Shown: piece after piece, positions 45,108 through 57,491 of the stretch
How positions within the stretch are numbered: the first letter of the stretch is position 1
How the letters are laid out: each line of letters opens with the position of its first letter
Assembly: GCA_017302035.1 (NCBI GenBank)
Contig: JAFLEA010000013.1
Coordinates: 1-57,491 of the forward strand
From: Lysobacterales bacterium
Lineage (GTDB): Bacteria; Pseudomonadota; Gammaproteobacteria; Xanthomonadales; Xanthomonadaceae
Length of the DNA: 57,491 nt
Direction of reading: 5' to 3'
The notes under the pieces: model-generated
The model's input: the letters and a program-made list of their open reading frames with translations, nothing else
The model's database searches: none
What the model was told of the DNA's origin: nothing
Program-made: the position numbers and the translations under genes

Positions 45108-45290
45108 GGCGCCGGCGCCCCGGACCAGGATCGGAGCGCGCGCCCGGGCCGGCGCGAGGTGACGCGGCCTCGGCGGGGGTGCGGGCAGCCGGGATCTCCC
45201 GCGTGCCAGCACCATATCGCGTGAGGCCCGGGCCGGCCGGCGGATTGCCGCTTTCTCGCCGGCCCGCTGGCCTGCCCGCGTCCGAACCGT

Positions 45291-45296
45291 TAGAAT
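45291..45296 (+). promoter_or_regulatory. possible -10 of the host tRNA-Thr promoter
   Basis: TAGAAT within CCGTTAGAATCCCG, 40 bases upstream of the split tRNA. The -35 position holds only a weak TGGCCT. After integration this promoter would transcribe the tRNA 5' half and then, ~110 bases later, the element's own tRNA-Thr. Confidence 0.35.
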
Positions 45297-45330
45297 CCCG
45301 CCCCCGGACGCGCTTGCGCGGCCGGCCATC

Positions 45331-45369
45331 GCCGGAATAGCTCAGTTGGTAGAGCGGCGCATTCGTAAT
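45331..45369 (+). pseudogene. 5' half of host tRNA-Thr(CGU), interrupted at the anticodon loop
   Basis: Acceptor strand GCCGGAA, complete D-arm (GCTCAGTTGGTAGAGC), anticodon 5' stem GCGCA, loop TTCGTAA and first 3' stem base. After position 39 the sequence leaves tRNA (CGCGACGCGG...). The missing half is found 12 kb away at 57364-57409: GCCGGAA pairs with its TTCCGGC, and GCGCA with TGCGT. The cut falls in the anticodon arm. Confidence 0.9.
45361..45369. other. attL core
   Basis: ATTCGTAAT, the 9-bp crossover core within the anticodon arm. On the host side it is preceded by GCGC and on the element side followed by CGCGACG. Joining the element's two flanks gives an attP of GCGATTCGTAATCGC, itself a near-perfect palindrome that mimics an anticodon stem-loop. 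Confidence 0.85.
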
Positions 45370-45454
45370 CGCGACGCGGTTGTCGTGGTGGCGGAGGCAG
45401 AAGGCATGCGGTACAAGGCTTTAGGGCCGCCAGCGGTCCGATGGCAAGGTGGCT

Positions 45455-45466
45455 CGGACACGGTTT
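45455..45466 (+). repeat. 12-bp repeat CGGACACGGTTT, left-end copy (candidate integrase arm site)
   Basis: An identical CGGACACGGTTT occurs at 57224-57235, near the other end. The copies lie 86 and 128 bases from their cores in the same strand orientation, as expected for arm-type binding sites of a tyrosine integrase on the two sides of attP. Only the sequence identity is observed; binding is inferred. Confidence 0.5.
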
Positions 45467-45477
45467 AAACAAGTTTC

Positions 45478-45553
45478 GCCGGAGTAGCTCAGTTGGTAGA
45501 GCACGTCATTCGTAATGATGGGGTCGTAGGTTCGATTCCTATCTCCGGCACCA
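45478..45553 (+). tRNA. tRNA-Thr (anticodon CGU), element-borne
   Basis: Complete 76-nt tRNA with encoded CCA. Acceptor GCCGGAG pairs with CTCCGGC; D-arm GCTC...GAGC; anticodon stem CGTCA / TGATG with loop TTCGTAA (anticodon CGT); T-arm GTAGG-TTCGATT-CCTAT. It differs from the reassembled host tRNA at 10 of 76 positions, mostly as compensating pairs in the stems (A7-T66 became G7-C66), so it is a functional but diverged copy. Its position inside the element, 108 bases from the left core, means it travels with the element and would supply the ACG-reading tRNA that integration breaks. Confidence 0.95.
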
Positions 45554-45563
45554 CTTGACGCCA

Positions 45564-45598
45564 GAAGGGCAGCCAGCAAGGCTGCCCTTCTTGCTTTT
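45564..45598 (+). terminator. intrinsic terminator after element tRNA-Thr
   Basis: Stem GAAGGGCAGCC / GGCTGCCCTTC (11 bp), loop AGCAA, then TTGCTTTT. Begins 11 bases after the tRNA CCA and separates it from the methyltransferase gene. Confidence 0.85.
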
Positions 45599-45688
45599 CG
45601 GAGCAAACAATACGCGGCAGTACGCGACAGTATGGATGGCTGAGCGGAGGCATCCGGCCATCCGCCTAGGCGATCCGAGGTAACCAAG

Positions 45689-47077
45689 TTGATTAGGAAG
45701 AAATATTCTGTTGCGGACTTCTTTGCTGGGTGCGGGGGGCTCTCTCACGGTTTCGAGCTGACCGGGCGGTTCAACGTCCTCCTGGGCTCAGACATCAAGC
45801 CCGAGGCGCTAGAGACGTTCGTCGAGAACCACGACAACGACCAGGGCAAGCCCGAGGCCATCCTTGAGGACATCCAAAAAGTCGCGCCCAAGGGCGTGCT
45901 CAAGATGCTGTCCCGTTTTGGGGTGAAGTCAGAGGGTCAGCTCGATTGCCTCATCGGTGGCCCGCCATGCGAGGGCTTCAGCCAGAACCGATCCATCAAT
46001 GCGGGAGGCAAGGTCACTGAGGGCACGGCCTCGCGTGTCAATCGCTTCATGGACGACCCGCGGAACCAGCTTTTCAAGTGGTACGTGGAGCTGGCCGCCT
46101 ATCTCAAGCCCCGAGTCGTCCTCATCGAGAACGTGCCGGACCTCGTCCGGCACAAGGACGGTGGGACGCTCAAGGAGATTCTCGACGCGCTGGACCGTGC
46201 TGGATACGTTGCCTCGGTAAGGGTGCTGCACGCTGCTGACTACGGGGTGCCCCAGATGAGGCGCCGCACCATCTTCCTCGGCCAGCGCAAGGAGGACTTC
46301 GCGCGTACGGGGATCAAGCTGCAATTCCCCGAGCCGACCCACAAGCCGTTCCCGCTCCACTACGAGGGCCTTGAGGAGGATCGCCTTTGGCTGCCCGGCG
46401 ACTCCGGCTATTGGCCTTCGGTGTGGGAGGCCATCGGAGACCTGCCTGCGCCCATCACCAAGGGCGCCGAGACGGCATTCATCCCGGCTGAGTACCCTTC
46501 AGCCGCCGACTCGGACCTGCGACGCTACTACCGTGGCTCCTCCCCGCAGATCTACAACCACGTTGCCCGACCGTTGGGTAAGAGCGGCTTGGAGAAGGTG
46601 CGAGCAATCGCAAAGGGGCAGGCGGCCTCGGACCTGCCGGACCACCTCCGCCCGAAGGCGTCCTACCACTACAGCTACGCCCGCCTGCGGTGGTCGGAGC
46701 CGGCGCGGACCATCACCAAGTTCTGCTATCACGTCGGGTCCGGCATGTTCGCCCATCCGGTCGAGGACCGTGCGCTCACGATGAGGGAGGCCGCGCGCCT
46801 TCAGACATTCCCGGACTCCTTCCGCTTCGTCTCGGACAACATCCGCGAACTGTCCGCAATGATCGGGTCGGCTGTGCCGCCCCTGCTCGCCAAGAAGATC
46901 GCGTGGTCAGTCTCGCGCTACCTGGACGAGATTCAGTTCGCCGACCTCTCGCCCGACGACAAGAAGCTGGTGCGGCCTCAGGCCACCGACGCCGTTCTCA
47001 AACGGCTACAGGGCGAGGAGTGGGGACACGAGGCGGAGCGGTTCGACCAGTCCGCGCTGTTCGCCGAGGAAGGCTGA
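45689..47077 (+). CDS. C5-cytosine DNA methyltransferase (type II modification enzyme)
   Basis: 462 aa, all motifs in order: I DFFAGCGGLSHGFE, IV GGPPCEGFSQN (catalytic Cys; Glu in place of the common Gln), VI VVLIENVPDLV, VIII QMRRRTIFLG, then a long target-recognition region (~215-330), IX ALTMREAARLQTFPDSFRF and X SAMIGSAVPPLLAKKIA. The start is a TTG at 45689 with GAGGT seven bases upstream. Its stop is 2 bases from that of the endonuclease gene, which faces it. Recognition sequence cannot be told from the sequence, but a NotI-type partner suggests a long GC-rich site. It protects element and host DNA. Confidence 0.92.
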   Translation: MIRKKYSVADFFAGCGGLSHGFELTGRFNVLLGSDIKPEALETFVENHDNDQGKPEAILEDIQKVAPKGVLKMLSRFGVKSEGQLDCLIGGPPCEGFSQNRSINAGGKVTEGTASRVNRFMDDPRNQLFKWYVELAAYLKPRVVLIENVPDLVRHKDGGTLKEILDALDRAGYVASVRVLHAADYGVPQMRRRTIFLGQRKEDFARTGIKLQFPEPTHKPFPLHYEGLEEDRLWLPGDSGYWPSVWEAIGDLPAPITKGAETAFIPAEYPSAADSDLRRYYRGSSPQIYNHVARPLGKSGLEKVRAIAKGQAASDLPDHLRPKASYHYSYARLRWSEPARTITKFCYHVGSGMFAHPVEDRALTMREAARLQTFPDSFRFVSDNIRELSAMIGSAVPPLLAKKIAWSVSRYLDEIQFADLSPDDKKLVRPQATDAVLKRLQGEEWGHEAERFDQSALFAEEG

Positions 47078-47079
47078 GC

Positions 47080-48138
47080 TCACCACTTGAAGTCAATCCA
47101 GTTGACGGGGTCGCCGGGTTTCCGGCGCCTCGACTGGGTTCGCTCCAACGTGGACTTGAGCAAGTCCAGCGACGGGATGTGGCCGATGCCCAGCATCGAC
47201 GTGAAGTCGGGGGCCGCAGCGTCATCCACGCGAGAGTTGCCTACCAACGTCTTGTCGTAGGCAAGATCGTACTGCTTGGTCTGCGGGTTCTCGTCCATCC
47301 GATAGACGACCATGTTCACGTTGCCGTCCTTCTTGTCCACAAAGGGTTCAGGCCGGAACGCTGTCGTCTGCTGGATGTACTCCAGCAGCACGTCCTGAAG
47401 AATCCAGATCGTCTTGCCACCCCAGCTCGCGGCAGCCTCGGACTTGGCGAACAGCTGCGAGGCCATGCGCCCGAACACCTGCCGGTAGTTGGGCGTATAG
47501 GGCGACTTGACCGCGCCGCGGAGCGAGCGCTGGTCACGTAGCGCCAGCACATCGGCCATGTGCTCCGTCAAGCCACCGCCTCGCGTGCTGGAGGTCATGA
47601 TCTCCAGGATGTAGGGGGCACCGATCAGCTTCGGGTGGTCGCCTCCCTCGCTCCAATCGACCTCCATCAGGATGTAGTCGAAGGTGAACTCGAAGAAGCG
47701 TCCTGCGAGCTCGTTCTCCTCGGAATCGTCGCTCGACGCGAACTTGAACTCCCACCAGCAGCGAACGTCGGCTCCAGACTTGATCGGAATCAGAGCCTTG
47801 ACCTCGGGAAGCATTACCGGAGGGCTGGTATGTAGCTCCATCATCCGCTTGGGACAGATGATCCACGGCTTCGACTTTGCCTCGAACCGTCGCTTGGTCG
47901 ATACGGTGCAGATGCCCAGAGGGGTGCGCGCCGCGGTGTAGTGCTTCGCGTAGATGGCGCGGTCATCGTCGGTGATGGCGGGACCGTTGGGGTCGAAGTA
48001 CGCCCGGTCACCCCGGTTCGCGGAGACGTCGCAGACCTTGCCCGTAAACGGGCAATTGCAGGTCAGCCAATTGGCATGGGGCTCAAGGAGGGCTTCTTCG
48101 TCCACCCGCCAGCCGAACAGTTCCGCGATCTTCGCCAC
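47080..48138 (-). CDS. NotI-family type II restriction endonuclease
   Basis: 352 aa. The N-terminus follows the iron-binding module of NotI: IAELFGWRVDEEALL, CNCPFTGKVCD, GICTVSTKRR and WIICPKRMM, giving the four-cysteine cluster positions. The nuclease region FEFTFDYILMEVDWSEG then YILEIMTSSTRGGGLTEHMA matches the NotI core, with Asp and Glu at the metal sites; where NotI has ExQ, this protein has EIM, so the third catalytic position should be checked. Start is the GTG at 48138. Convergent with the methyltransferase, a normal restriction-modification layout. Specificity is unknown; NotI itself cuts GCGGCCGC. Confidence 0.75.
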   Translation of the reverse strand: MAKIAELFGWRVDEEALLEPHANWLTCNCPFTGKVCDVSANRGDRAYFDPNGPAITDDDRAIYAKHYTAARTPLGICTVSTKRRFEAKSKPWIICPKRMMELHTSPPVMLPEVKALIPIKSGADVRCWWEFKFASSDDSEENELAGRFFEFTFDYILMEVDWSEGGDHPKLIGAPYILEIMTSSTRGGGLTEHMADVLALRDQRSLRGAVKSPYTPNYRQVFGRMASQLFAKSEAAASWGGKTIWILQDVLLEYIQQTTAFRPEPFVDKKDGNVNMVVYRMDENPQTKQYDLAYDKTLVGNSRVDDAAAPDFTSMLGIGHIPSLDLLKSTLERTQSRRRKPGDPVNWIDFKW

Positions 48139-48575
48139 CCAGACATCTCCCCCACTTATAGCGCGTCATCGGGATTCTCGCCGATGCCTACGCCTGAGGG
48201 TAGCTAATTCTTACTCGTGACCCAAGTCGAGTCCGGAAGCGATCCAGGCAGCCCGTGGCGCGTCCGGGACCGCGCGGCCTGATACCGAGCAGCCCGGACC
48301 GCGTCGCGCCGCACGGGCTCACCGGGGAGCCCGGACAAAGTGTTGGTGTCGGCGCGAGAGTCGGGCCGGTACTATGTGAACTAATCGGGCTGGCGACCAG
48401 GCCAGCCCGAGGATCGCCGGCAATGGCTATGGCGATCAGAAGTGCTTTCGGTGGCAAGAACAGCCGAGGCCAGCCCAGCGTGACGAACCGGGCAGCCCAT
48501 CTCTGCGACGCACAGCAGGCCCAGTCCCCCGGCGGCATCCCGCCGTCGCGGGAGCCCTGGAGATGGAGCACGCCT
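48139..48575. other. non-coding regulatory region between endonuclease and alpA
   Basis: 437 bases with no convincing gene. It separates the divergent restriction gene and the replication operon, so it should hold promoters for both. A hairpin TCGGGCTGGC-GACCAG-GCCAGCCCGA (48385-48410) follows a TACTAT (-10-like) at 48370-48375. The open frame running into alpA from 48255 has the codon use of non-coding DNA. Confidence 0.4.
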
Positions 48576-48878
48576 GTGACTACCCCCTACGAACCCAAGA
48601 AACTCTCCCCCGAGGAGATGGCGGAGCTGCACGCGCTCCCCGACGAAGCGCTGGCGACCGCCCAGGAGGCGGCCGCATTCCTGCGCCTCAAGTACAACAC
48701 CCTGTCGTGGTACCGCTGCAACGGCGGGGGCCCGAAGTACACCCGCGTCGGGCCGAAGCTGATCCGCTACCGCATGGGCGACCTGCGCGAGTACGCGAAG
48801 GGCCAGCCGATGGGCGAGGGAATGCGGAAGGTCGGCGCAGCGATGCTGGCGGCCCGCACCGCCAAGGCGGAGGGCTGA
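48576..48878 (+). CDS. AlpA/excisionase-like helix-turn-helix regulator
   Basis: 100 aa from the GTG at 48576 (VTTPYEPKKLSPEEMAELHA), with GGAG seven bases upstream. The MerR-type winged helix TAQEAAAFLRLKYNTLSWYR followed by GPKYTRVGPKLIRYRMGDLR is the family signature of AlpA and of satellite/plasmid helix-turn-helix regulators. In P4-like satellites AlpA activates int, and excisionases of the same fold direct excision; either role is possible. Three bases before the primase-helicase gene, so cotranscribed. Confidence 0.78.
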   Translation: MTTPYEPKKLSPEEMAELHALPDEALATAQEAAAFLRLKYNTLSWYRCNGGGPKYTRVGPKLIRYRMGDLREYAKGQPMGEGMRKVGAAMLAARTAKAEG

Positions 48879-48881
48879 CCG

Positions 48882-51290
48882 ATGGCCGCACAAGAAAACG
48901 CCCACGGCGTGCTAGACCGTGGGCGCAAGGTTACAACCGACCGGGAGACGGAGCCTGCCAGAGCTCACGGGATCAATGATGCCGTGGGGCGCAGCTCGCC
49001 GACGCCGTCATTCGACGTCGATGGTCTGATCCGCGCGGGCCTCACGCTGATCCCGCTCCACAGGTGGGACGCCAAGGACGCGAGGGGCCGAGACCGCGGC
49101 AAGACCCCGCGCGACGGCGCCTGGCAGGCCAGGGACTACGACAGCCGCGAGGTGGTCGAGGGCGCGCGGCGCGACGGCCGCAACGTGGGCGTGCGCCTGC
49201 CGCCGACGTGGATGGTGCTCGACGTGGACCCGCGCAACTTTGGCGGGAAGGACGACCCCGAGAACGCCGCCGGACGCGACCCGCTGGCCGAGCTGGCGCG
49301 CGACGCGATGCTCGACCTGTCGGCGTGCCCGCACGTCGTCACCGGATCGGGCGGGCACCACTACTACTTCCGCAAGCCCGCCGACGTGCAGCTCCTCGAC
49401 AGCCTGGAGACCTACCCCGGCGTGGAGTTCAAGAGCCAGGGCCGCCAGGTGGTGGCCCCCGGCTCCGTGCACCCGAACGGCCGGCGATACGAGTGGGACG
49501 ACCTGGCGCCGTTCCCCGAGGAGGCGCCGCAGGTGCCCGACGCGCTGCTGCGCCTCATCCGCCGGCCGATGCGGGCCCACGGCGAGGCGGCGGGCTTCGG
49601 CGAGCTCACGCCGGAGATGCTGGCGGAGACCCTGGAGCAGCTCGACCCCGAGGCGTTCGCCGAGCACGACAAGTGGCGCGACCTGATGATGGCCTGCCAC
49701 CACGCCACTGCGGGCGAGGGGCGGCAGGAGTTCATCGACTGGAGCACGCAGGACCCGAAGTACCGGGACGACGCGTGGATCATCGGCAGGCGCTGGGACT
49801 CGCTTCACGCCACCGCAGGCAAGGGCGGGCGGCCCATCACGGTGAAGCTGCTGCACAAGTTCGTGCAGGAGGTGGGAGGGCACGTCGCGCGCGTAGACGC
49901 AGCCGACGACTTCGACGCGTGGGAGGACGCCGAGGACCTGGGTTGCGGAGTGGACGACGCCGCGCTGCGCGAGCCGCCGAAGCTTGAGGGCAAGGCCGCC
50001 GTCCTGGAGGAGATGAACGCCCAGCACTGCGTCGTCATGGAGAACGGCAAGTTCCGCGTCTTCACCGAGGAGTTCGACCCGGTGCTCGGCAGGCACTTCT
50101 ACCAGCGCTCCACCAAGGAGGACTTCCAGAACCTCTACTGCAACAGCTTCGTCGAGCAGGTCAACGACAGGCCGACGACGCGGGCGCAGTTCTGGCTGAA
50201 GCACCCGCAGCGGCGCCAGTACAAGGGCGTCATCTTCGACCCCTCGGGCGACCACGCCGGGTGGCTGAACCTGTGGCGCGGCTGGGCGGTCGATCCGGCG
50301 CCGGGCGACTGGTCGCTGCTGGACCGCCTCATCCGCGAGGTGCTGACCGACGGCGACCCGCAGGGCTACCGCTACGTGCTGAACTGGATGGCCGCCATGT
50401 TCCAGCGTCCGTCCGAGGCCGCCGAGGTGGCTATCGCGTTCAGGGGCGCGAAGGGCACGGGCAAGGGCACGCTGGGCCGCGTCCTACAGCACATCGCCGG
50501 GGCACACGGCCTGCACATCAGCTCGCCGGAACACATCACGGGGCGGTTCAACTCGCACCTCCAGAACTGCATCTGCCTGTTCGCCGACGAGGCGTTCTGG
50601 GCGGGCGACAAGTCGGGCGAGGCGAAGCTGAAGGCGCTCGTGACGGAGCCGACGGTCGCCTACGAGGGCAAGGGGCGCGACGCCGTGATGGGGAAGAACT
50701 TGATCCACATCGTCATGGCCTCCAACTCCGACTGGGTCGTGCCCGCCGGCCTGGACGGCGAGCGGCGCTTCGCGGTGTTCGAGGTGAACGACTCCCGCAA
50801 GGACGACCACGAGTTCTTCCGCGCGCTTAACCGCCAGCTCGACAACGGGGGCCGCGCCGCCTTCCTGCACGACATGCTCGCGCGCGACATCCGGGGCTGG
50901 CACCCGCGAAACGACATCCCGCAGAACGGCGCGCTCGCCGAGCAGAAGCTGCGCGGCATGGACGCCGAGTTCTCCTGGTGGTACTCGCTACTGTACGAAG
51001 CCGAGCTGCCGGGCTACGACGAGGAAAGGGACTGGCAGGCCGGCGAGGTCGTGCTCGACAAGGCCGACCTGTACGAGAGCTACCTGGCCTTCGCCCGCAG
51101 CCGCACCCGGCACCCGAGGCCGCTGCCCGGCCTAGCGAGGGTGCTGCTCACCAAGGTCGGCGTTGAGTCGCGGCAGATCAGGAGCGGCACCCGCAAGGAC
51201 AAGCGCGTGTACGTCGTCCCCGCGCTCGACCAGGCGCGCGCCGCGTTCGCCGAAATCGTCAAGGCAAGCCCCTCGCAGCTCTGGGGTTGA
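48882..51290 (+). CDS. prim-pol/DUF5906 SF3-like primase-helicase
   Basis: Replication initiator of the element, 802 aa. The N-terminal AEP-type prim-pol (~40-230) has PTWMVLDVDPRNFGG (catalytic Asp pair), GSGGHHYYFRKP and GVEFKSQGRQVVAPGSVHPN. A linker PriCT-like segment (DKWRDLMMACHHATAGEGRQ) follows. The C-terminal DUF5906/SF3-like ATPase has Walker A FRGAKGTGKGTLGR, Walker B CICLFADEAFW, sensor HIVMASNSDWVVPAGLDG and Arg finger in ERRFAVFEV. Same architecture as satellite and plasmid replicases of the P4-alpha kind. A terminator follows. Confidence 0.9.
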   Translation: MAAQENAHGVLDRGRKVTTDRETEPARAHGINDAVGRSSPTPSFDVDGLIRAGLTLIPLHRWDAKDARGRDRGKTPRDGAWQARDYDSREVVEGARRDGRNVGVRLPPTWMVLDVDPRNFGGKDDPENAAGRDPLAELARDAMLDLSACPHVVTGSGGHHYYFRKPADVQLLDSLETYPGVEFKSQGRQVVAPGSVHPNGRRYEWDDLAPFPEEAPQVPDALLRLIRRPMRAHGEAAGFGELTPEMLAETLEQLDPEAFAEHDKWRDLMMACHHATAGEGRQEFIDWSTQDPKYRDDAWIIGRRWDSLHATAGKGGRPITVKLLHKFVQEVGGHVARVDAADDFDAWEDAEDLGCGVDDAALREPPKLEGKAAVLEEMNAQHCVVMENGKFRVFTEEFDPVLGRHFYQRSTKEDFQNLYCNSFVEQVNDRPTTRAQFWLKHPQRRQYKGVIFDPSGDHAGWLNLWRGWAVDPAPGDWSLLDRLIREVLTDGDPQGYRYVLNWMAAMFQRPSEAAEVAIAFRGAKGTGKGTLGRVLQHIAGAHGLHISSPEHITGRFNSHLQNCICLFADEAFWAGDKSGEAKLKALVTEPTVAYEGKGRDAVMGKNLIHIVMASNSDWVVPAGLDGERRFAVFEVNDSRKDDHEFFRALNRQLDNGGRAAFLHDMLARDIRGWHPRNDIPQNGALAEQKLRGMDAEFSWWYSLLYEAELPGYDEERDWQAGEVVLDKADLYESYLAFARSRTRHPRPLPGLARVLLTKVGVESRQIRSGTRKDKRVYVVPALDQARAAFAEIVKASPSQLWG

Positions 51291-51307
51291 GGGAGAACAG
51301 CATCACG

Positions 51308-51345
51308 GCCGTTCGACGCCTGACGTGTCGAACGGCTTCTTCTTG
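51308..51345 (+). terminator. intrinsic terminator of alpA-primase operon
   Basis: Stem GCCGTTCGAC / GTCGAACGGC (10 bp), then TTCTTCTTGCTCG, 17 bases after the primase stop. Confidence 0.75.
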
Positions 51346-51497
51346 CTCGTTTCGCTTTACGGATCATGCGCTTATGAATCGGCGAACAGCCCGAACGCGT
51401 TTCTCGGCTCCGAAATCGTTTTAGGATTTTTGGCGCCGCGCAGACCTCGCCGACACGCCACTCTGTTGCGGGGAGACTTTCGATTCGTCGTCGGTGA

Positions 51498-51578
51498 GAA
51501 ATAAGCTGTGCAAGTTGTTCAAGTTGTTCATAGATCAATAAAGCTAAGTAAAACAAAGAAAAAACAGCGAACAGCTTT
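51498..51578. other. candidate replication origin of the element
   Basis: The most AT-rich stretch of the element, with a tandem direct repeat CAAGTTGTT-CAAGTTGTT (51511-51528) and an A-rich run, bounded by an inverted repeat AAGCTGT (51503-51509) and ACAGCTT (51571-51577). It lies just downstream of the primase-helicase, as ori regions of satellites often do. No replication evidence; inferred only. Confidence 0.4.
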
Positions 51579-51885
51579 ACGCACGGCTTCCGAGTTGCCC
51601 TTGAGAATGTCGTGCTGCGCGTCGTGTGAGGGATTCGGCGCGGCCTGAGCCTGGCCGAGCGCGTCGGGCGTGGCGATCTACGCGGGGAACGCGGCCGGAT
51701 CGTCCTTCCGACCGTGTGCTTCCTGTCCCTCGCGCGCGAGGAGAAGCTCCCGCCGACCGTGGCCGAGCGCGCCGCCTGATCGCACATCAGAGGGTCGGGA
51801 CCGTCCAAGTCCTTGAGCCGACTGCTTGAACGATGGCGTGCCTGCGCGCGTAAGCACGACACGATCACGCCGTAAGCCACTTTTC

Positions 51886-52419
51886 ATGGAGACGGCGGCC
51901 GTGCAGTCCACCCCCAACTCGTTCACGCCCGAGCGGCGCGAGGTGTTCTTCCAGGTCCTGGAGGACACGTGCTCGCCCAAGCAGGCCGCGGCCGCGGCGG
52001 GCATCAGCAGGCAGACGGCCTTCTACCACAAGGCCAACGACGTCGAGTTCCGCACCCGGTGGGAGAAGGCGGTCGAGGTTGCCCTCGACTCGCTGCTGGA
52101 CGAGGCGTACAGGCGCGCGGCGCTCGGGTACGACGAGCCCGTGATCCACGGCGGCAGGCTCGCTACGGTGAGGGACCCGCAGAGCGGCGAGGAGCGGCCG
52201 CTCACGGTGCGCAAGCACAGCGACAGGCTCCTGGAGGTCCTCCTGAAGTTCCGCTACGGCGAGCAGATGGCGGACAGGCTGCGCGTCAGGGTCGAGGACA
52301 CGGGCCTGTCGGCCGACGCCCTGCTGGCGATGCCCGCCGACGAGCGCGCCCAGCTCGTGGCGCTGCTCTCCAAGTACAACGCGGCGCGGCCGCACGACGA
52401 GGAGCACGACGATGAGTGA
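51886..52419 (+). CDS. TerS-like small terminase subunit
   Basis: 177 aa from the ATG at 51886 (METAAVQSTPNSFTPERREV); the frame is open further up. HTH SPKQAAAAAGISRQTAFYHK, then FRTRWEKAVEVALDSLLDEA, YRRAALGYDEPVIHGG and RKHSDRLLEVLLKFRYGEQM. This order (HTH, short helix bundle, a beta turn with pairs of Asp/Glu and Val, and SD-x-LL-x-x-LLK) is that of phage TerS proteins. There is no TerL in the window, so it would redirect a helper phage terminase to the element, as in PICIs and SaPIs. It could instead be a regulator that resembles TerS. Confidence 0.65.
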   Translation: METAAVQSTPNSFTPERREVFFQVLEDTCSPKQAAAAAGISRQTAFYHKANDVEFRTRWEKAVEVALDSLLDEAYRRAALGYDEPVIHGGRLATVRDPQSGEERPLTVRKHSDRLLEVLLKFRYGEQMADRLRVRVEDTGLSADALLAMPADERAQLVALLSKYNAARPHDEEHDDE

Positions 52420-52657
52420 CAGGCTGAGCGTCGCCGAGGCCCTGGCCAAGGCGGAGCAGATCGAGGTCATGCTGGGCGCGATCCACGACACGGCGCCCGA
52501 GGCGGTCAAGGCGATGGGCGGGCGCGACGCCCTGGCCCGGGCGTCGGAGATGACGTGCCTCGGCCCGGTGCCGCGCCTGGACGCGGACGAGTGGGAGCGC
52601 ATGTCGCTGGAGTACGAGGCGCGGCGCGAGCATGGCAGCGTCAACCGCGGGCACTAA
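52412..52657 (+). CDS. small acidic hypothetical protein
   Basis: 81 aa, not recognised. Helical, acidic N-terminus (LSVAEALAKAEQIEVMLGAI), then DEWERMSLEYEARREHGSVN. Overlaps the TerS-like stop by 8 bases and the next gene by 26, so it belongs to the same operon. Codon use matches its neighbours, which supports it as real. Confidence 0.55.
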   Translation: MSDRLSVAEALAKAEQIEVMLGAIHDTAPEAVKAMGGRDALARASEMTCLGPVPRLDADEWERMSLEYEARREHGSVNRGH

Positions 52658-53075
52658 CGGGCACGCGGTCGCCGTCGAGGTGTGCGGGGTGCGATACCCC
52701 TCCGCCAGGCAGGCGGCCCAGGCGCTCGGCCTCAGCCCCAACCGGGTGTCGGTCCGGTGCCACTCCGACAGGTGGCCCGACTACCGCTGGCTCGGCGCGA
52801 CGCCCGGCCGGCGGGAGCTGACGCCCGAGGACAGGCGCATCGCCAGGCCCCTAACCGAGCCCGAGCGGTGGCCGAACGACGGCGGCGCGCGACGCGCCCC
52901 CGTGATGGACCCGAACTACGACCCGCCCAGGGTCGTGCGCCGGGTCGGCTGGCTCCGCTGCATGTGCTGCGGGCGGTCCCACTTCTCCGAGGACGTGGCC
53001 CGCGCCCGCATGTGCCTGGACTGCGGCGGGGCCGGCGGCATGCCGACCGGGCCGCGTCCCGACTGGGACGCCTGA
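52632..53075 (+). CDS. small protein with NUMOD-like DNA-binding start and zinc-knuckle-like cysteines
   Basis: 147 aa. Residues ~15-50 (VCGVRYPSARQAAQALGLSP, then NRVSVRCHSDRW) look like a NUMOD1-type helix-turn-helix found in phage homing endonucleases. Near the C-terminus CMCCGRSHF and CLDCGGAGG form two CxxC pairs 17 residues apart, a likely zinc ribbon. No nuclease motif is visible. Possibly a DNA-binding regulator or packaging factor of the element; this is inference. Confidence 0.6.
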   Translation: MAASTAGTNGHAVAVEVCGVRYPSARQAAQALGLSPNRVSVRCHSDRWPDYRWLGATPGRRELTPEDRRIARPLTEPERWPNDGGARRAPVMDPNYDPPRVVRRVGWLRCMCCGRSHFSEDVARARMCLDCGGAGGMPTGPRPDWDA

Positions 53076-53300
53076 CATTCCATCGGCGGGCGGCGCGAGG
53101 CCAAGCCCATGATTCGCAAGCCGCAGTGACGGCGGCAGCTTCGAGGGAAACACGTCCGGGAAACGATGGCGTTCGCGGCCAGCGCACCCCGACACATTGC
53201 AGGCATCCGGTCAGCGCACAGGCGCGCAGACCACCCCACGGCTGGGGATGCGCTCGTGACAGGCGACCGGAGGACCACAACCCACCGGAGCCCACGAGCA

Positions 53301-54026
53301 ATGAAGATCGAACTCAGCGACACCCCCCTCCTCAGCGCACAGCAGATCGGCGAGCTCGCCTCGACCCTGGACCTGCTGCACAAGCGCACCCTCGCCGCGA
53401 TCGAGCGGCTGAACAAGGACATCGCGACCCGCAAGCAGCAGATCGCCGCGCGCTGGAAGAGCGCTCCCGGCATCGGCATGGCCGACGTGGCCCGCTTCGC
53501 CGAACACGAGACGCTCGCCAGCGTCCGCGAGATCAAGGACAACTCCAAGGCCGAGCTGGACAAGATCATGAAGGACGCCGGCGCGCCGCACGCGCAGCTG
53601 GTCGCCCAGCGCCAGTTCTACGACTCCCCGGCCAAGGTCCTGGCCCGCGCCGCACTGGGCGACCCCAAGCGCACCGAGTACCTCCAGCAGCTCCAGCACG
53701 CCGGCCCCGCCGAGCTCGGCCACATGGCCCAGGTCGCCGTCGGCACGCGCAACGTCGCCCTGGCCTCCGCCGTGCTGTCCCTGATCGACCGCCTGCCCAC
53801 CAAGGACCGCCCGGTCGGCCCGGTCGAGCTGGCGACCGCGATGAAGCAGGACGACTTCCTGAAGGTGCAGGAGTACATCAAGCTGGGCGACGCGCGCCTC
53901 CAGGGCATCCTGGTCGCCATCCGCGCCTGGTACGCCGGCAAGTCCAACCCGCTCGGCTCGGTGCAGCTCGCCATGCGCGAGCGGGACATCGACCACGACC
54001 TGATCGGGGGCGACGGCGATGACTGA
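53301..54026 (+). CDS. hypothetical helical protein of the element
   Basis: 241 aa from the ATG at 53301 (MKIELSDTPLLSAQQIGELA) with GGAG ten bases upstream; the longer open frame reads through 135 bases of non-coding type. Predicted almost entirely helical: LHKRTLAAIERLNKDIATRK (coiled-coil-like), then ADVARFAEHETLASVREIKD and a second half rich in Leu/Ala. No family recognised. It could be structural or accessory; the size and position resemble scaffold-like or packaging genes of satellites, but nothing in the sequence proves this. It overlaps the next gene by 8 bases. Confidence 0.6.
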   Translation: MKIELSDTPLLSAQQIGELASTLDLLHKRTLAAIERLNKDIATRKQQIAARWKSAPGIGMADVARFAEHETLASVREIKDNSKAELDKIMKDAGAPHAQLVAQRQFYDSPAKVLARAALGDPKRTEYLQQLQHAGPAELGHMAQVAVGTRNVALASAVLSLIDRLPTKDRPVGPVELATAMKQDDFLKVQEYIKLGDARLQGILVAIRAWYAGKSNPLGSVQLAMRERDIDHDLIGGDGDD

Positions 54027-54300
54027 CCGGCGCGCCCACTACCCGCCGTGCCACCCGGCGATGCTGGCACTCGCGGCCCTGGTCGCGGCGATCCAGCACA
54101 GGTGCGACCCGTTCCCCGAGCTCGAGGCCGCAGCGGCCCGCAACGGCGTGGCCGTCGGCTCCGAGGAGTTCGACGAGGCCGCGGCGCTGGCCGGGCAGCC
54201 CTACTGCCGCGCGCTGGACCTGTACGTCGACCGCGAGACCAAGCGCAGGGCTGACGCCCTGGGGTCGGGGATGGCGCACCTGGCCTTCCTCCCGGCCTGA
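54019..54300 (+). CDS. small hypothetical protein
   Basis: 93 aa, unrecognised. HPAMLALAALVAAIQHRCDP is a hydrophobic helix, followed by an acidic region (SEEFDEAAALAGQPYCRALD) and YVDRETKRRADALGS. Coupled to the upstream gene by an 8-base overlap. Not clearly a membrane protein, because the hydrophobic stretch is short. Confidence 0.5.
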   Translation: MTDRRAHYPPCHPAMLALAALVAAIQHRCDPFPELEAAAARNGVAVGSEEFDEAAALAGQPYCRALDLYVDRETKRRADALGSGMAHLAFLPA

Positions 54301-54367
54301 CCCGAGCAAACCCGGCCGGGTTGGTTAGGTGCGCAGAGGGCAACGGGTGGCCCGGCCGTGTTTCGGA

Positions 54368-54398
54368 GGGGATGTCCCAAGGGCATCCCCTTCTTTTT
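54368..54398 (+). terminator. intrinsic terminator of the terS-to-54300 operon
   Basis: Stem GGGGATG / CATCCCC with an inner CCC/GGG pairing, then TTCTTTTT, 67 bases after the preceding stop. Confidence 0.8.
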
Positions 54399-54525
54399 CA
54401 TGCGCTTGCGGACCCTCGCGCGCCGACAGCAAGTTAGATGGCCTGAAAACAGCGTCGAGGGGGCTCCCGGATCGAGGGAACCGCGACCTAATGCCTACGT
54501 GCCCACCAACACGTAGGAGAACGCC

Positions 54526-55041
54526 ATGAAGCTGGAAGAGATGCCCACCAAGGACCTGCTGGCCCTGCACAACCAGATCGCCGACAAGCCAGCAGGCCCC
54601 AAGACCTTCGCGACCCGGGCCAAGCTCGTCGCCCGGATCGAGCAGGTCGCGGCCGACAAGAACATCGACCTGGCCTCGTTCGGGCAGCCGAAGAAGCCCA
54701 AGGTGACCGCGCAGCGCGCAGAGCCGAAGGCCGAGGTCACCGAGGCGCCCGAGGCCGCCGAGAAGAAGCCGCGCGGCCTCGGCGTGGGCGCGCTCGCACG
54801 CGCGATCCTGATGGACCCGGCCGGCCACCCGCACGCGCTTATCGCGGACATGGTCAACGCGCAGATCGAGGGCGCGGCTGCCACGGCCAAGTCGGTGCGC
54901 TGGTACGCCAACGACATGCGCAAGAGGGGCGTCGAGGTGCCGCCGCGTCAGAAGCACCACCCGGCCGACATGGACGAGGAGCAGTCGGCCGAGGCGCTGT
55001 CCACAGTTCGGGTGGTCGAGCCCGCGCCATCCGACGGCTGA
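54526..55041 (+). CDS. hypothetical protein with SAP-like start and Pro/Glu linker
   Basis: 171 aa, a real gene with its own leader and terminator. N-terminus MKLEEMPTKDLLALHNQIAD looks like a helical protein-interaction or SAP-like DNA-binding segment; a charged linker (PKKPKVTAQRAEPKAEVTEA) follows and then a winged-helix-like C-domain (VGALARAILMDPAGHPHALI, then KSVRWYANDMRKRGVEVPPR). DNA-binding accessory proteins of phages use the last pattern. Function unknown. RBS AGGAG is seven bases upstream. Confidence 0.65.
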   Translation: MKLEEMPTKDLLALHNQIADKPAGPKTFATRAKLVARIEQVAADKNIDLASFGQPKKPKVTAQRAEPKAEVTEAPEAAEKKPRGLGVGALARAILMDPAGHPHALIADMVNAQIEGAAATAKSVRWYANDMRKRGVEVPPRQKHHPADMDEEQSAEALSTVRVVEPAPSDG

Positions 55042-55065
55042 CGCCGTTCTCCCGTCGTGTACGAG

Positions 55066-55092
55066 AAAGGGCCACCGTCACGGTGGCCCTTT
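55066..55092. terminator. bidirectional hairpin terminator
   Basis: Perfect 12-bp stem AAAGGGCCACCG / CGGTGGCCCTTT, loop TCA, then CATTTCAT. Lies between the convergent genes ending at 55041 and 55133. Confidence 0.85.
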
Positions 55093-55132
55093 CATTTCAT
55101 CGCCTTGTGATGCGTCGCGCGCCGACTGCGGA

Positions 55133-55354
55133 TCAGGCGTGCACCTTTTCGAGTTCGTCCAGCTCGGTCAGACACTCTTCCAGCAGCAGCCGCAGTTCCA
55201 GCTTCGCCACCTCATCCTTCTGGAAGACCATGTGATCGCGGATGATGCCGATCAGGTCGTTTGCCTCACCGCTGACGCGGATGCGCTTGCCGACGTGTCG
55301 GCTCATCCGATCCTCGACGCGACGCCGCACCTGGACACGGGGATCGACTGTCAT
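55133..55354 (-). CDS. small hypothetical protein, operon partner of 55351-55869
   Basis: 73 aa (MTVDPRVQVRRRVEDRMSRH). Basic N-terminus, then EANDLIGIIRDHMVFQKDEV and an acidic helix ending KLELRLLLEECLTELDELEK, compatible with a small regulatory dimer such as an antitoxin. No recognised family. ATG overlaps the stop of the upstream gene (ATGA), so the two are translated together. Confidence 0.6.
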   Translation of the reverse strand: MTVDPRVQVRRRVEDRMSRHVGKRIRVSGEANDLIGIIRDHMVFQKDEVAKLELRLLLEECLTELDELEKVHA

Positions 55355-55869
55355 GCTGCCTTCTTCTTCTGCTTCTCCGCAGGCTTCTTGTCGGCCAACT
55401 TGCCGGCGTCGTACACCATGAGCGCGGTCTCCCACGCGCGCTGCGCGGTGGCCTTCGCCCTTGCGTCGTCGTACCCCTCGAACTCGCGGAGGTAGTCGGC
55501 CAATGCCAACATGGGCCAGGCATGGAATCCGTAGTTGTCCGCGAGGGTGATGTACGCCTGGTACCACTCATTCAGCTCGCTATCGAAGCTGCCGGAGTAA
55601 TAGACGCCGAACTCGTGCTGTGCAGTGTCTTCTCCCACATCCTTCACGACTGCGCCGTAGAGCAGGGCAACCTCGTCGTTGTTTTCCCGCTGCTGGCGCG
55701 CCTTCAGCACCGCGCTAGTGAGCAGCTTCCACGCTGACACTGCCCTCTCGCGCGAACCCTCCCAGTTCAACAGGTCGAACGCGATGGCGTTCAACTCGTT
55801 CCGGGCGAAGAAATACAGGGTGGTGGGGTGGCGGAGGGGCTTGGTGTAGCCGTTCTTGATGATGCTCAT
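55351..55869 (-). CDS. hypothetical protein, first gene of the integrase-proximal operon
   Basis: 172 aa. The ATG at 55869 is favoured over that at 55875 because GGAGAA then lies eight bases upstream. Tyr/Trp-rich: HPTTLYFFARNELNAIAFDL, GEDTAQHEFGVYYSGSFDSE and AYITLADNYGFHAWPMLALA, with a Lys-rich tail (KPAEKQKKKAA). No family is recognised. Divergence in composition from the GC-rich neighbours and the two-gene layout next to int are reminiscent of toxin-antitoxin or anti-phage modules, but no catalytic motif can be named. Confidence 0.6.
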   Translation of the reverse strand: MSIIKNGYTKPLRHPTTLYFFARNELNAIAFDLLNWEGSRERAVSAWKLLTSAVLKARQQRENNDEVALLYGAVVKDVGEDTAQHEFGVYYSGSFDSELNEWYQAYITLADNYGFHAWPMLALADYLREFEGYDDARAKATAQRAWETALMVYDAGKLADKKPAEKQKKKAA

Positions 55870-55966
55870 TTTCATTTCTCCAGATGGTTTTCACTGATCG
55901 GAATTGACCAGCTGGTAGGGGATGCTAAGCACACTTTTTGATGCCGTGAACTATTATTGCTGGGCA

Positions 55967-57193
55967 CTACGCGACCTCGCATTCGTTTGTTGACGGTGCG
56001 TCAGTAGGCGTGCTTGCGAGGCGTGGCGGCCACTCGCCCTCGGTCCATTCGAGGCCGAGCTGTTCGAGGATGTAGCGCGACGCGGCCTCCTGGTGGTTGC
56101 GCAGGTGCTCGGGGCCGACGTGTATGTAGCCCATCGTGACGTTGCTCGCCGCGTGGTTGAGCAGGTACTTCAGCTCAAGCAGCGGGACACCGGCCTGCAC
56201 GGCGAGCGTGGCGAACGTGTGCCGCAGGGCGTGGCCCGTCAGTCCGTCCAGCTCGTGCTGCGCGACCTCGGCGACGTGGCCCGACTTCGACTCGGCGGGG
56301 AACAGCCACGGGCTCTTGCGGTGCAGGCGCGGGTTCTCCTCGACGCGGTGGCCGAGCAGGTCGGCGAGCGGCCCCGACAGCGGCAGGTCGAACGCGCGGG
56401 TCGATCCGCCCTTGGGCTTGGGCACGTGCAGGCGCCCGGAGGCGAGGTCTAGGTCGGATGCGCGAGCCTCGCAGGCCGAGGTGCGCCGCATGCCCGTGAG
56501 CACCATGAAGAGGTGCAGGTCGCGGCGCACAGGGTGGAGCCCGAGCACCGCCTTGCCCCACGCCTTGAGCCTGTCCGTCGGCGCGTCCACCTTGCGACGC
56601 CGCAGCCCGTGGTAGTCCACGTTCCCGCAGGGGTTCGGCGGCAGGTCCGGGTGCTCGCGCAGGCCCCGGTTGTACACGGCCCTGAAGATGCGGAAGGCGT
56701 TGTCCGCCGAGGGCGCGCCGTGCCGCTCGGTGATGCGGCGGTGCCTGTCGCGCACGCCCGAGCGGTCCGCGCCGAGCTCGGCCAGCGGGCGGTCGAGCCA
56801 GTCGGACAGGTACTGCTCGCAGTTGTAGCGGTAGTCGTCCTTGGTCCTCGGGGACAGCGGCTTGGCCGCCAGGTGGAGGTCGAGCGCCTCGCGCAGGGTG
56901 ATCCCGCGCGCACGCGCCCGGCGGCGCTCCTCGTTCGGGTTGACCCCGCCGCGCATTCCGACCAGCGTCTGTCGGGCGGCGTCGCGGGCCTGCTTGGCGT
57001 CCATCGCCGGGTGGTCGCCCAGCTTCGTCCTGACCTGACGGCCGTTGACGAGGGACTGGACGTAGAAGCTGCGCTTGGTGGCGGTGACGATGAGGTAGAA
57101 CCCCCTCATCTCGGTGTCGGCGTACAGGACCGACTTGCCCGGCTCGGGGCGGGGCGCCCTCTCGACGAGGGACTGGGTGATCTTCGACTTCAT
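55967..57193 (-). CDS. int: tyrosine recombinase/integrase of the element
   Basis: 408-aa P4-type phage integrase: an N-terminal arm-binding DUF4102 domain (SVLYADTEMRGFYLIVTATK, LGDHPAMDAKQARDAARQTL), a core-binding helical domain (~105-200) and the catalytic domain with Arg in VLTGMRRTSACEA, Lys in HVPKPKGGSTRAF, HxxR in GHALRHTFATLAVQAG, a second His in YLLNHAASNVTM and the Tyr nucleophile in GYIHVG. GGAG five bases before the ATG. It adjoins attR, as usual, and points inward. The target is the anticodon loop of tRNA-Thr. Confidence 0.95.
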   Translation of the reverse strand: MKSKITQSLVERAPRPEPGKSVLYADTEMRGFYLIVTATKRSFYVQSLVNGRQVRTKLGDHPAMDAKQARDAARQTLVGMRGGVNPNEERRRARARGITLREALDLHLAAKPLSPRTKDDYRYNCEQYLSDWLDRPLAELGADRSGVRDRHRRITERHGAPSADNAFRIFRAVYNRGLREHPDLPPNPCGNVDYHGLRRRKVDAPTDRLKAWGKAVLGLHPVRRDLHLFMVLTGMRRTSACEARASDLDLASGRLHVPKPKGGSTRAFDLPLSGPLADLLGHRVEENPRLHRKSPWLFPAESKSGHVAEVAQHELDGLTGHALRHTFATLAVQAGVPLLELKYLLNHAASNVTMGYIHVGPEHLRNHQEAASRYILEQLGLEWTEGEWPPRLASTPTDAPSTNECEVA

Positions 57194-57216
57194 GCTGGCT
57201 CCGTGGGTGGCGGGGC

Positions 57217-57254
57217 CACGGCACGGACACGGTTTCGCACCACAAGGTGCCGTG
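57217..57254. repeat. inverted repeat upstream of int (candidate operator)
   Basis: CACGGCAC (57217-57224) and GTGCCGTG (57247-57254), an 8-bp inverted repeat spaced by 22 bases, 24 bases upstream of the int start. It overlaps the right copy of the 12-bp repeat (57224-57235). It could bind AlpA, an excisionase or the integrase. Confidence 0.45.
57224..57235 (+). repeat. 12-bp repeat CGGACACGGTTT, right-end copy
   Basis: Identical to 45455-45466, same strand, 128 bases inside the right core. Candidate arm-type integrase site. Confidence 0.5.
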
Positions 57255-57363
57255 TTCAGACGCGCCGTAAGTGCCCTGAAGCCTCATTAGGTCGCGGTTT
57301 TCCCTTGCTGTAAGCGCACTTAGGCCGTCTGATACCAAATCATGGCACTATGCGCGCGCAGCG

Positions 57364-57372
57364 ATTCGTAAT
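57364..57372. other. attR core
   Basis: ATTCGTAAT, identical to attL, preceded by element sequence (CGCGCAGCG) and followed by host tRNA (GCGTAGGTC). Confidence 0.85.
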
Positions 57373-57409
57373 GCGTAGGTCGTAGGTTCGATTCCTATTT
57401 CCGGCACCA
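57364..57409 (+). pseudogene. 3' half of host tRNA-Thr(CGU)
   Basis: Anticodon loop, 3' stem TGCGT, variable loop AGGTC, T-arm GTAGG-TTCGATT-CCTAT, acceptor 3' strand TTCCGGC and ACCA. TTCCGGC pairs perfectly with GCCGGAA of the 5' half at 45331, and would mismatch the element tRNA (GCCGGAG). This shows the halves once formed one gene. Confidence 0.9.
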
Positions 57410-57418
57410 GATCCCGAC

Positions 57419-57449
57419 AGGCCCCGCTTCGGCGGGGCTTCGTCGTTTC
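57419..57449 (+). terminator. intrinsic terminator of the host tRNA gene
   Basis: Stem GCCCCGC / GCGGGGC with TTCG loop, then TTCGTCGTTTC, 11 bases after the CCA end. The stem and loop resemble those after rpmA. Confidence 0.75.
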
Positions 57450-57491
57450 AGGGGCGGCGGCGTCTCGCCAGTGGAGACGCCGCGCGGCTAC

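Follow-up and report, generated by a model that had tools for sequence, protein, structure and literature searches.

A satellite-like element that splits a tRNA-Thr(CGU) gene and carries a replacement tRNA in a Lysobacterales genome

When mobile DNA enters a transfer RNA (tRNA) gene and leaves it in two pieces, what serves the host in its place? This question is raised by a window of 57,491 nucleotides, the whole stretch of DNA analyzed here, which is contig C31 (JAFLEA010000013.1) of a metagenome-assembled genome (MAG) of a Lysobacterales bacterium (GCA_017302035.1; 2.91 Mb, 99.36% complete, 125 contigs). An element of ~12.0 kb lies between the two halves of a tRNA-Thr gene with anticodon CGU and carries a complete tRNA with the same anticodon. 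A first-pass annotation had suggested that this layout reflects a break-and-replace strategy. In our analysis the best explanation, with a probability of roughly 0.87, is that a satellite-like element splits tRNA-Thr(CGU) via a 9-bp core in the anticodon loop and supplies a complete replacement.

The split gene and its replacement

The following features carry this reading (attL and attR are the left and right junctions with the host).

45331–45369, plus strand: 5' half of the host tRNA-Thr(CGU), attL side, from sequence comparison with relatives
45361–45369, plus strand: att core ATTCGTAAT in attL, within the anticodon loop, the sole 9 bp common to attL and attR at the crossover
45478–45553, plus strand: replacement tRNA-Thr, anticodon CGU, complete with CCA (ARAGORN; Rfam tRNA, 70.5 bits)
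57364–57409, plus strand: 3' half of the host tRNA-Thr(CGU), attR side, with the core at 57364–57372

The two halves overlap in ATTCGTAAT and, when rejoined, form a 76-nt cloverleaf in which all 21 stem pairs are standard (7, 4, 5 and 5 in the four stems). Neither half alone was matched as a tRNA by Rfam (E ≤ 1), and the single tRNA that ARAGORN saw in the window was that at 45478–45553. At attL the 5' half is followed by CGCGACGCGG, which is not tRNA sequence. The replacement has the same orientation as the broken gene, lies 108 bp inside attL and differs from the rejoined host tRNA at 10 of 76 positions, with every stem pair kept in both. The coordinates, the core, the ten differences and the compensated stems had all been described in the first-pass annotation, as had the failure of either half to be a tRNA by itself and the lack of anything tRNA-like behind the 5' half, and each of these descriptions held. 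The split, the short core and the replacement can be read directly from the DNA, and so can two further observations given below, that no other intact copy was found and that the layout is conserved.

An intact tRNA regenerated at one junction, the mark of canonical islands, was not found in the window. What was found agrees with tRNA-dependent lysogeny: a tyrosine integrase with its attB in a host tRNA gene, a 9-bp core with no tRNA at either junction, and a carried cognate tRNA, tRNA-Thr(CGU). The implied attP, GCGATTCGTAATCGC, reads as an inverted repeat around CGT, as would be expected of two core-type integrase sites.

Comparison with uninterrupted relatives, suggested by the annotation, showed 100% identity of the rejoined tRNA to an unbroken gene in 10 of 59 other genomes searched. 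Within the genus (17 genomes including this one), the tRNA was unbroken, in one copy, in 14 and split in three (this genome, G001 and G005). The empty site was also seen: promoter region, tRNA and a radA flank (TIGR00416, 2.9e-183; here on contig C122) are contiguous in three genomes of the same genus (L049, L051 and L057). The sister MAG G001 has the same layout in the same site, with an integrase 98% identical. The annotation had named two arrangements that would speak against it, relatives with the same 5' half followed by unrelated DNA and a second intact tRNA-Thr(CGU) in this genome. The relatives keep the gene whole, and neither BLAST (E ≤ 0.001) nor half-tRNA patterns (up to 2 mismatches) detected another tRNA-Thr(CGU) in this genome, so the replacement is its only intact copy found. 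Two other tRNA-Thr genes were seen, with anticodons GGU and UGU.

Related loci, nesting and left ends

Scanning GTDB contigs by integrase yielded 18 loci, 15 of them with integrase identity of at least 39%. Twelve of the 15 break and replace (L117, L120–L127, L129, L130 and L133), two restore the tRNA (L118, L. ruishenii; L119, X. cucurbitae) and one, in Ottowia (L128), occupies a non-tRNA site; in the stretches examined of the remaining three (L131, L132 and L134; 24–30% identity) no parts of tRNA-Thr(CGU) were seen. Further cases came from a survey of the family (G091 and G166) and from IMG/VR (L153, L160, L162 and L167–L169). Altogether, both halves of a split tRNA together with a carried tRNA of matching anticodon were found at 21 loci, which come from isolates, MAGs or viral contigs (18 rows in the first comparison and three added; G166, without a 3' half, is not counted). 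The halves are on different contigs in two of the 21, Stenotrophomonas (L121) and Thauera (L124), and part of the host half in the Azospira row reads N. Isolates with the layout are P. broegbernensis, Arenimonas daejeonensis, Fulvimonas soli, Massilia pinisoli, Bordetella ansorpii and Azospira sp., and the carriers span Beta- and Gammaproteobacteria (NCBI classes). One viral contig (L162) has the host flanks of the window, with element DNA 92–96% identical over the aligned parts.

In these loci the carried tRNA is oriented like the broken gene and lies just inside attL. Elements are about 9–13 kb long (the remnant in G089, a Lysobacteraceae MAG, is 3.5 kb), and shared cores measure 8–14 bp in the 18 rows compared. 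The loop-to-loop distance from broken to carried tRNA is 147–157 nt in all 14 window-family loci and 123 nt in all five loci of a second family, whose integrases are about 40% identical; G091 has 56 nt and the inner P. broegbernensis element 238 nt. A hypothetical hybrid of host 5' half and carried 3' half would keep at most three of five anticodon-stem pairs in 15 of 20 usable rows (the outer P. broegbernensis element, whose carried tRNA is split, was left out); in the Azonexus example the host stem is ACTGA/TCAGT and the carried one GCGCA/TGCGA. Whole replacement would therefore free the element from the stem sequences of its host, and only the loop core would have to match. The Ottowia case fits this requirement: the element sits in a secondary site outside any tRNA (L141:1950–2170 and about 13040) and still carries tRNA-Thr(CGU), and the host tRNA-Thr(CGU) is intact (L149) with the native loop CTCGTAA, not TTCGTAA. 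Among tRNA-Thr(CGU) genes of loci L034–L101, a few discrete stem types (e.g., GCGCA/TGCGT and CGTCA/TGATG) vary between related genomes, and the carried tRNA of the window equals the native one of several of these loci.

In three of the 21 loci (the inner P. broegbernensis element, G089 and Massilia) the tRNA that was split had been brought by an earlier element, so that nested insertion was seen in three host genomes. In P. broegbernensis, the host tRNA (691432/717256) is split by element 1, the carried tRNA of element 1 (691555/704740) is split by element 2, and element 2 has an intact third tRNA at 691793 and a different integrase candidate. For the latter, L066:10992–12239 was considered and dropped because it had no family match; L066:12526–13443 is the better candidate (PF00589, 2e-11). 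In G089 and Massilia, a spacer of the element type precedes the split tRNA, and an apparent decayed older half (by eye in Massilia) lies further up, behind the host promoter. The oldest half in G089 has six substitutions and one insertion over 40 aligned columns, while the newest tRNA is preserved, as is the TTGACC-17-TAGAAT ahead of the old half. For G166, the searches turned up a single tRNA-Thr(CGU), the carried one; a 3' half was not detected anywhere in the genome, nor was an integrase of this kind within the 20 kb examined. G166 and the decayed cases indicate that the replacement can become permanent.

Replacement is not a fixed property of the integrase. The X. cucurbitae and L. ruishenii elements, the latter running over two contigs, have 97–99% identical integrases and rebuild the tRNA at attL. 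The X. cucurbitae and Fulvimonas elements are 91% identical over 10.1 kb, up to the right end, yet the former restores and the latter replaces, the two differing in their left ends. An integrase tree of 26 rows, with 12 of 22 inner branches unresolved, placed the two restoring elements at different points within the replacing group: one with Stenotrophomonas (97/83), the other in the group of the window itself (93/93, short of the mark for firm support). Rows left out of this reading were G089 (a fragment), v161 and v162 (partial and on the same contig as v150) and the distant Melaina, Centralia and G091. Because near-identical integrases occur with either kind of left end, the switch looks like module exchange; the simplest reading is that left-end modules have been exchanged, with no direction assigned.

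The layout is rare: a random sample of the phylum showed it in one of 397 other genomes (G747, unconfirmed). In the family, at least seven of 395 genomes have it (this genome, G001, G005, G089, G091, G166 and G351); this survey scored two candidates per genome, and 60 genomes were searched again. The tRNA-based searches required a CGU loop, so the same strategy at other tRNAs could not be found by them. In phage and plasmid collections the integrases were distant, with at most 33.4% identity among the 40 rows listed, beyond which there were 95 and 69 further records, and a short-spacing pattern scan of viral contigs found none. Five viral loci with part of the layout were not counted: L151, L155 and L159 (3' half), L161 (5' half and tRNA) and L152 (junction). 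At L152:9661–10001 the core connects a right end with integrase from one family to a left end with tRNA of the type seen in the other, an arrangement that is either a tandem junction or attP. L154 (about 1013, minus strand; integrase 73% identical) terminates in a tRNA-Thr 3' half whose loop is, by eye, of the UGU type, which perhaps reflects a switch to another target tRNA; the remainder of the record yielded no left end. In G257 (L111) a 3' part stands at the end of a contig. The G747 stretch (L165), outside the counts, contains two tandem left-end-like units with a broken 5' half and a tRNA-Thr(CGU); no 3' half was seen there, tblastn with five integrases was negative and none of eight open reading frames had an integrase domain, and it is perhaps an old remnant.

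Transcription, mechanism and rival explanations

How the replacement could be transcribed depends on the following features.

45268–45296, plus strand: promoter-like TGGCCT-17-TAGAAT of the host tRNA, 34 nt ahead of the broken tRNA; it matches 8 of 12 consensus bases, a score that 2 of 300 shuffles reached
45370–45477, plus strand: spacer between the broken half and the replacement tRNA, conserved in related elements (alignment of 10)
45563–45591, plus strand: terminator-like hairpin behind the replacement tRNA, with a 12-pair stem and a T-rich tail (one found; shuffle mean 0.5)

Promoters were scored by the 12 bases of the sigma-70 consensus against 300 shuffles, and a promoter of another type would escape this test. 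The window spacer had no promoter-like sequence beyond chance (243 of 300 shuffles reached its score), and the same was true of all 14 window-family spacers tested (best 4–7 of 12, reached by 77–287 shuffles; 14 of 16 loci, v153 and v162 being left out). Upstream of the broken half, host DNA scored 8–10 of 12 in all eight first-level sites, and 0–10 of 300 shuffles reached the score in seven of them; several other hosts have a better -35 element, TTGACC. In the G089, Massilia and Bordetella sites the spacer or decayed half of an older element lies upstream, with scores of 5–8 that 67–289 shuffles reached; in G089 and Massilia a host promoter-like sequence is found further up (10 and 8 of 12 by consensus score alone). 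Three sites could not be scored. As the spacers are at chance level and the host upstream regions above it, the replacement tRNA of the window may be driven by a captured host promoter, a view that we hold with moderate confidence, at about even odds.

Several results weigh against such capture. A stricter promoter scan of 45150–45650 listed no promoter at all, the host promoter of the window is weak by consensus, and the Fulvimonas host score was matched by 24 of 300 shuffles. Moreover, spacers of the second family have TATAAT or TATAGT 8 bp before the tRNA, with 9–10 of 12 bases in all five loci (1 and 4 of 300 shuffles reached the score in the two loci tested), so promoter capture is not general; this sequence overlaps, by eye, a TAATAAGG-like repeat that is possibly an arm site. 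It is a serious possibility, though short of an even chance, that break-and-replace is right and the replacement is transcribed from a promoter in its own spacer. Two second-family loci (L168 and L169) score only 7 and 6 of 12 in the host upstream region, and the mycobacteriophage tRNA described in PMC10865867 is reported there to have a promoter of its own. However, the chance-level scores of the window-family spacers argue against this for the window.

In the mechanism that we propose, the tyrosine integrase would recombine tRNA-Thr(CGU) at the 9-bp core within its anticodon loop, and the host gene would be split on integration because attP has no tRNA 3' part with which to rebuild it. The element would bring a complete tRNA-Thr(CGU) with its terminator-like hairpin, and the replacement would presumably be made, charged and able to cover the loss. 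In the window's family, transcription may run from the promoter of the host tRNA through the broken half and the spacer (promoter capture), in which case the replacement would be silent while the element is excised. Independence from host stems would permit entry into hosts that retain this core, including those in which a rebuilt hybrid would fail to pair. The replacement may itself become a target, giving nested insertions, and decay of an element may leave its tRNA as a lasting substitute. A stronger version, which we offer tentatively and at slightly less than even odds, is an integration-gated supply: a promoterless replacement would be turned on only behind the host tRNA promoter, and serial breakage would leave dead halves like tree rings and permanently change the tRNA-Thr(CGU) of the lineage. 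If this were true, the element would be freed from host-stem matching and one integrase family could serve both Gamma- and Betaproteobacteria.

Some observations count against break-and-replace itself or against a need for it. Besides the two restoring relatives, a further intact tRNA-Thr(CGU) is retained by two of the 15 genomes whose tRNA holds an element (the Thauera and Azoarcus MAGs), so the replacement is not always strictly needed. This genome is in 125 contigs, and another tRNA-Thr(CGU) could lie in a missing part or be too diverged to be detected. Its tRNA-Thr(UGU) presumably reads ACG too, and so the lost gene may not be essential. The break-and-replace reading of the first-pass annotation is supported by the 21 comparative loci, with three corrections: the strategy was already in print (PMC10865867), it is not tied to this integrase, and two genomes have another intact copy.

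The restoring relatives illustrate an ordinary tRNA-targeting island, in which the 3' part in attP rebuilds the tRNA and a second tRNA would be unrelated cargo. This reading is true of X. cucurbitae and L. ruishenii and very improbable for the window, where CGCGACGCGG follows the 5' half, attL and attR share 9 bp only and neither half scores as a tRNA; ordinary restoration in the window is ruled out by the attL sequence. The carried tRNA might instead supply codons for phage or satellite genes, its match to the broken isoacceptor being a coincidence or by-product. ACG makes up 50 of 125 Thr codons in eight element genes versus 10 of 42 in two host genes, and the tRNA-based searches were blind to other isoacceptors. 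However, the loci found by integrase hold, by ARAGORN, no tRNA within the element besides tRNA-Thr(CGU), at a fixed position just inside attL (the tRNA-Asn of L126 and the tRNA-Cys of L117 lie outside the elements), and we regard codon supply as improbable.

Escape from anticodon nucleases or other tRNA-cutting defences appears a shade less probable still. It would agree with stems that differ from those of the host in most rows and with the defence-like cargo of several elements. Known anticodon nucleases cut the anticodon loop, however, and this loop is identical in all rows (an identity required by the search); in addition, carried and split tRNA do not differ at all in Massilia and G089. 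Finally, an assembly artefact of the metagenome has to be considered, because the window, a MAG contig, stops 82 bp past the 3' half and shares exactly 127 bp with contig C122 (window 57365–57491; C122 6955–7081). The shared stretch, whose first base is tRNA position 32, is probably a graph overlap and points to branching of the assembly graph beside attR. Yet the same layout is present in the MAG G001 and analogous layouts in isolate genomes, by which an artefact is rejected in kind, and L162 has nearly the same host flanks with different element DNA, although it could stem from the window's own sample. The chance of an artefact is close to negligible, and break-and-replace by a satellite-like element remains the preferred explanation.

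Element genes and known systems

The other features of the element are:

45455–45466, plus strand: candidate arm-type integrase site CGGACACGGTTT, left copy of a 12-bp direct repeat
45689–47077, plus strand: cargo, cytosine-5 DNA methyltransferase (PF00145, 1.1e-55; TIGR00675 dcm)
47080–48138, minus strand: cargo, 352-aa protein without a match in Pfam, PHROGs, PADLOC or NCBIfam
48255–48878, plus strand: helix-turn-helix protein (HTH_17; PF12728, 3.5e-6)
48882–51290, plus strand: primase-helicase (Prim-Pol, PriCT_2, DUF5906; phrog_1156, 1.6e-127)
51826–52419, plus strand: small-terminase-like protein (phrog_4044, 2.1e-26)
52632–53075, 53166–54026 and 54526–55041, plus strand: small proteins from the open reading frame list, function not assigned
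55351–55875, minus strand: 174-aa protein, no function assigned (open reading frame and library scans)
55967–57193, minus strand: tyrosine integrase with an arm-binding domain, adjoining attR (PF00589, 3.6e-16; PF13356, 3.2e-11; phrog_1, 3e-46)
57224–57235, plus strand: candidate arm-type integrase site CGGACACGGTTT, right copy of the direct repeat

The element looks like a phage satellite. Its sole packaging-type gene is the small-terminase-like one, related elements occur in IMG/VR, and no capsid, portal, tail or other structural gene was seen among the ten element proteins scanned (a few small open reading frames lay outside the scan). Of the small proteins, that at 52632–53075 has a below-cutoff match to I-TevI_DNA-bd (2.2e-4), and that at 54526–55041 matches PHROGs of unknown function. 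By position only, the 352-aa protein is perhaps the partner nuclease of the methyltransferase. The slot behind the replacement tRNA is variable. It holds restriction-modification or defence-like genes (methyltransferases, an Eco57I-type system, PRTase-CE) in five elements, though not in every element examined (window 45689–48138; L064:7425–9225; L138:8876–11199; L066:1583–8806; L160:362–1483), and the Bordetella element has a transposase gene with rve domains (L140:3249–4496).

Gram-negative phage-inducible chromosomal islands, as the available part of PMC10111431 describes them, resemble the window in having an integrase, a helix-turn-helix regulator, a primase and a terminase-like gene and no structural gene seen. 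Their combination of primase and packaging gene without structural genes was found among the ten window proteins scanned; their int next to alpA and mostly single gene direction were not, the window int standing alone at the right end on the minus strand and the HTH_17 gene starting at 48255. The canonical tDNA islands of Islander (PMC4383910), for which a crossover centred on the anticodon is one usual class (2083 islands in that database), and the Stenotrophomonas P2-like phage Smp131 in tRNA-Thr (PMC3931495) also use tyrosine integrases. According to the passages at hand, both restore the tRNA from attP, whereas the window splits and replaces it.

The closest precedent is tRNA-dependent lysogeny, which was described, tested and named for actinobacteriophages including mycobacteriophages (Guerrero-Bustamante & Hatfull 2024, PMC10865867). 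In the parts of that paper available, those phages likewise have a tyrosine integrase, a core in a tRNA gene (8–17 bp) and a tRNA that is not rebuilt, and the related phages Cain and Ximenita differ in replacing or rebuilding, as do the elements here. The carriers there are complete temperate phages of Actinobacteria using tRNA-Lys, tRNA-Ile2 and tRNA-Leu, the need for the tRNA was tested, and the tRNA of Fionnbharth overlaps a gene on the opposite strand and has its own promoter; here the tRNA lies just inside attL on the same strand. Unlike those phages, our cases, known from sequence only, are satellite-like elements of Beta- and Gammaproteobacteria in tRNA-Thr(CGU), with nesting and, in one family, possible use of the host promoter.

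Two further parallels are prophages. In Sinorhizobium meliloti, prophages like Mesorhizobium phage Lo5R7ANS inactivate tRNA-Leu-UAG on integration and replace it with a carried tRNA that is closer to the tRNAs of other species, and the authors suggested diversification of tRNA genes (PMC11476347). The element and the tRNA are others than here, and the passages available contain no analysis of nesting or promoters; in what is accessible of PMC12429752, the strategy was not seen in another Sinorhizobium prophage group. Lj965 of Lactobacillus johnsonii, a prophage of another phylum cited in PMC10865867, resembles the window in a junction tRNA that is not rebuilt and a carried cognate tRNA. A literature search, mostly without subscription papers and often confined to parts of the sources, brought up no account of satellites using the strategy, of replacements nested in one another or of a promoter being used at attL. 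As far as these searches show, the satellite-like carriers, the serial nesting, the swaps between replacing and restoring, the possible promoter capture and the lasting replacement of a host tRNA are new.

Nested and decayed cases offer a route by which mobile DNA may take over, and then renew, a host tRNA gene. Island-mapping tools keyed to a regenerated tRNA may miss such elements, and annotation may list the replacement as a native tRNA. In the passages available, PMC10865867 leaves open the frequency of the strategy beyond actinobacteriophages and its relation to the usual tRNA-restoring systems. The elements described here bear on both questions, with small satellite-like carriers in Beta- and Gammaproteobacteria and near-identical integrases that occur with either kind of left end.

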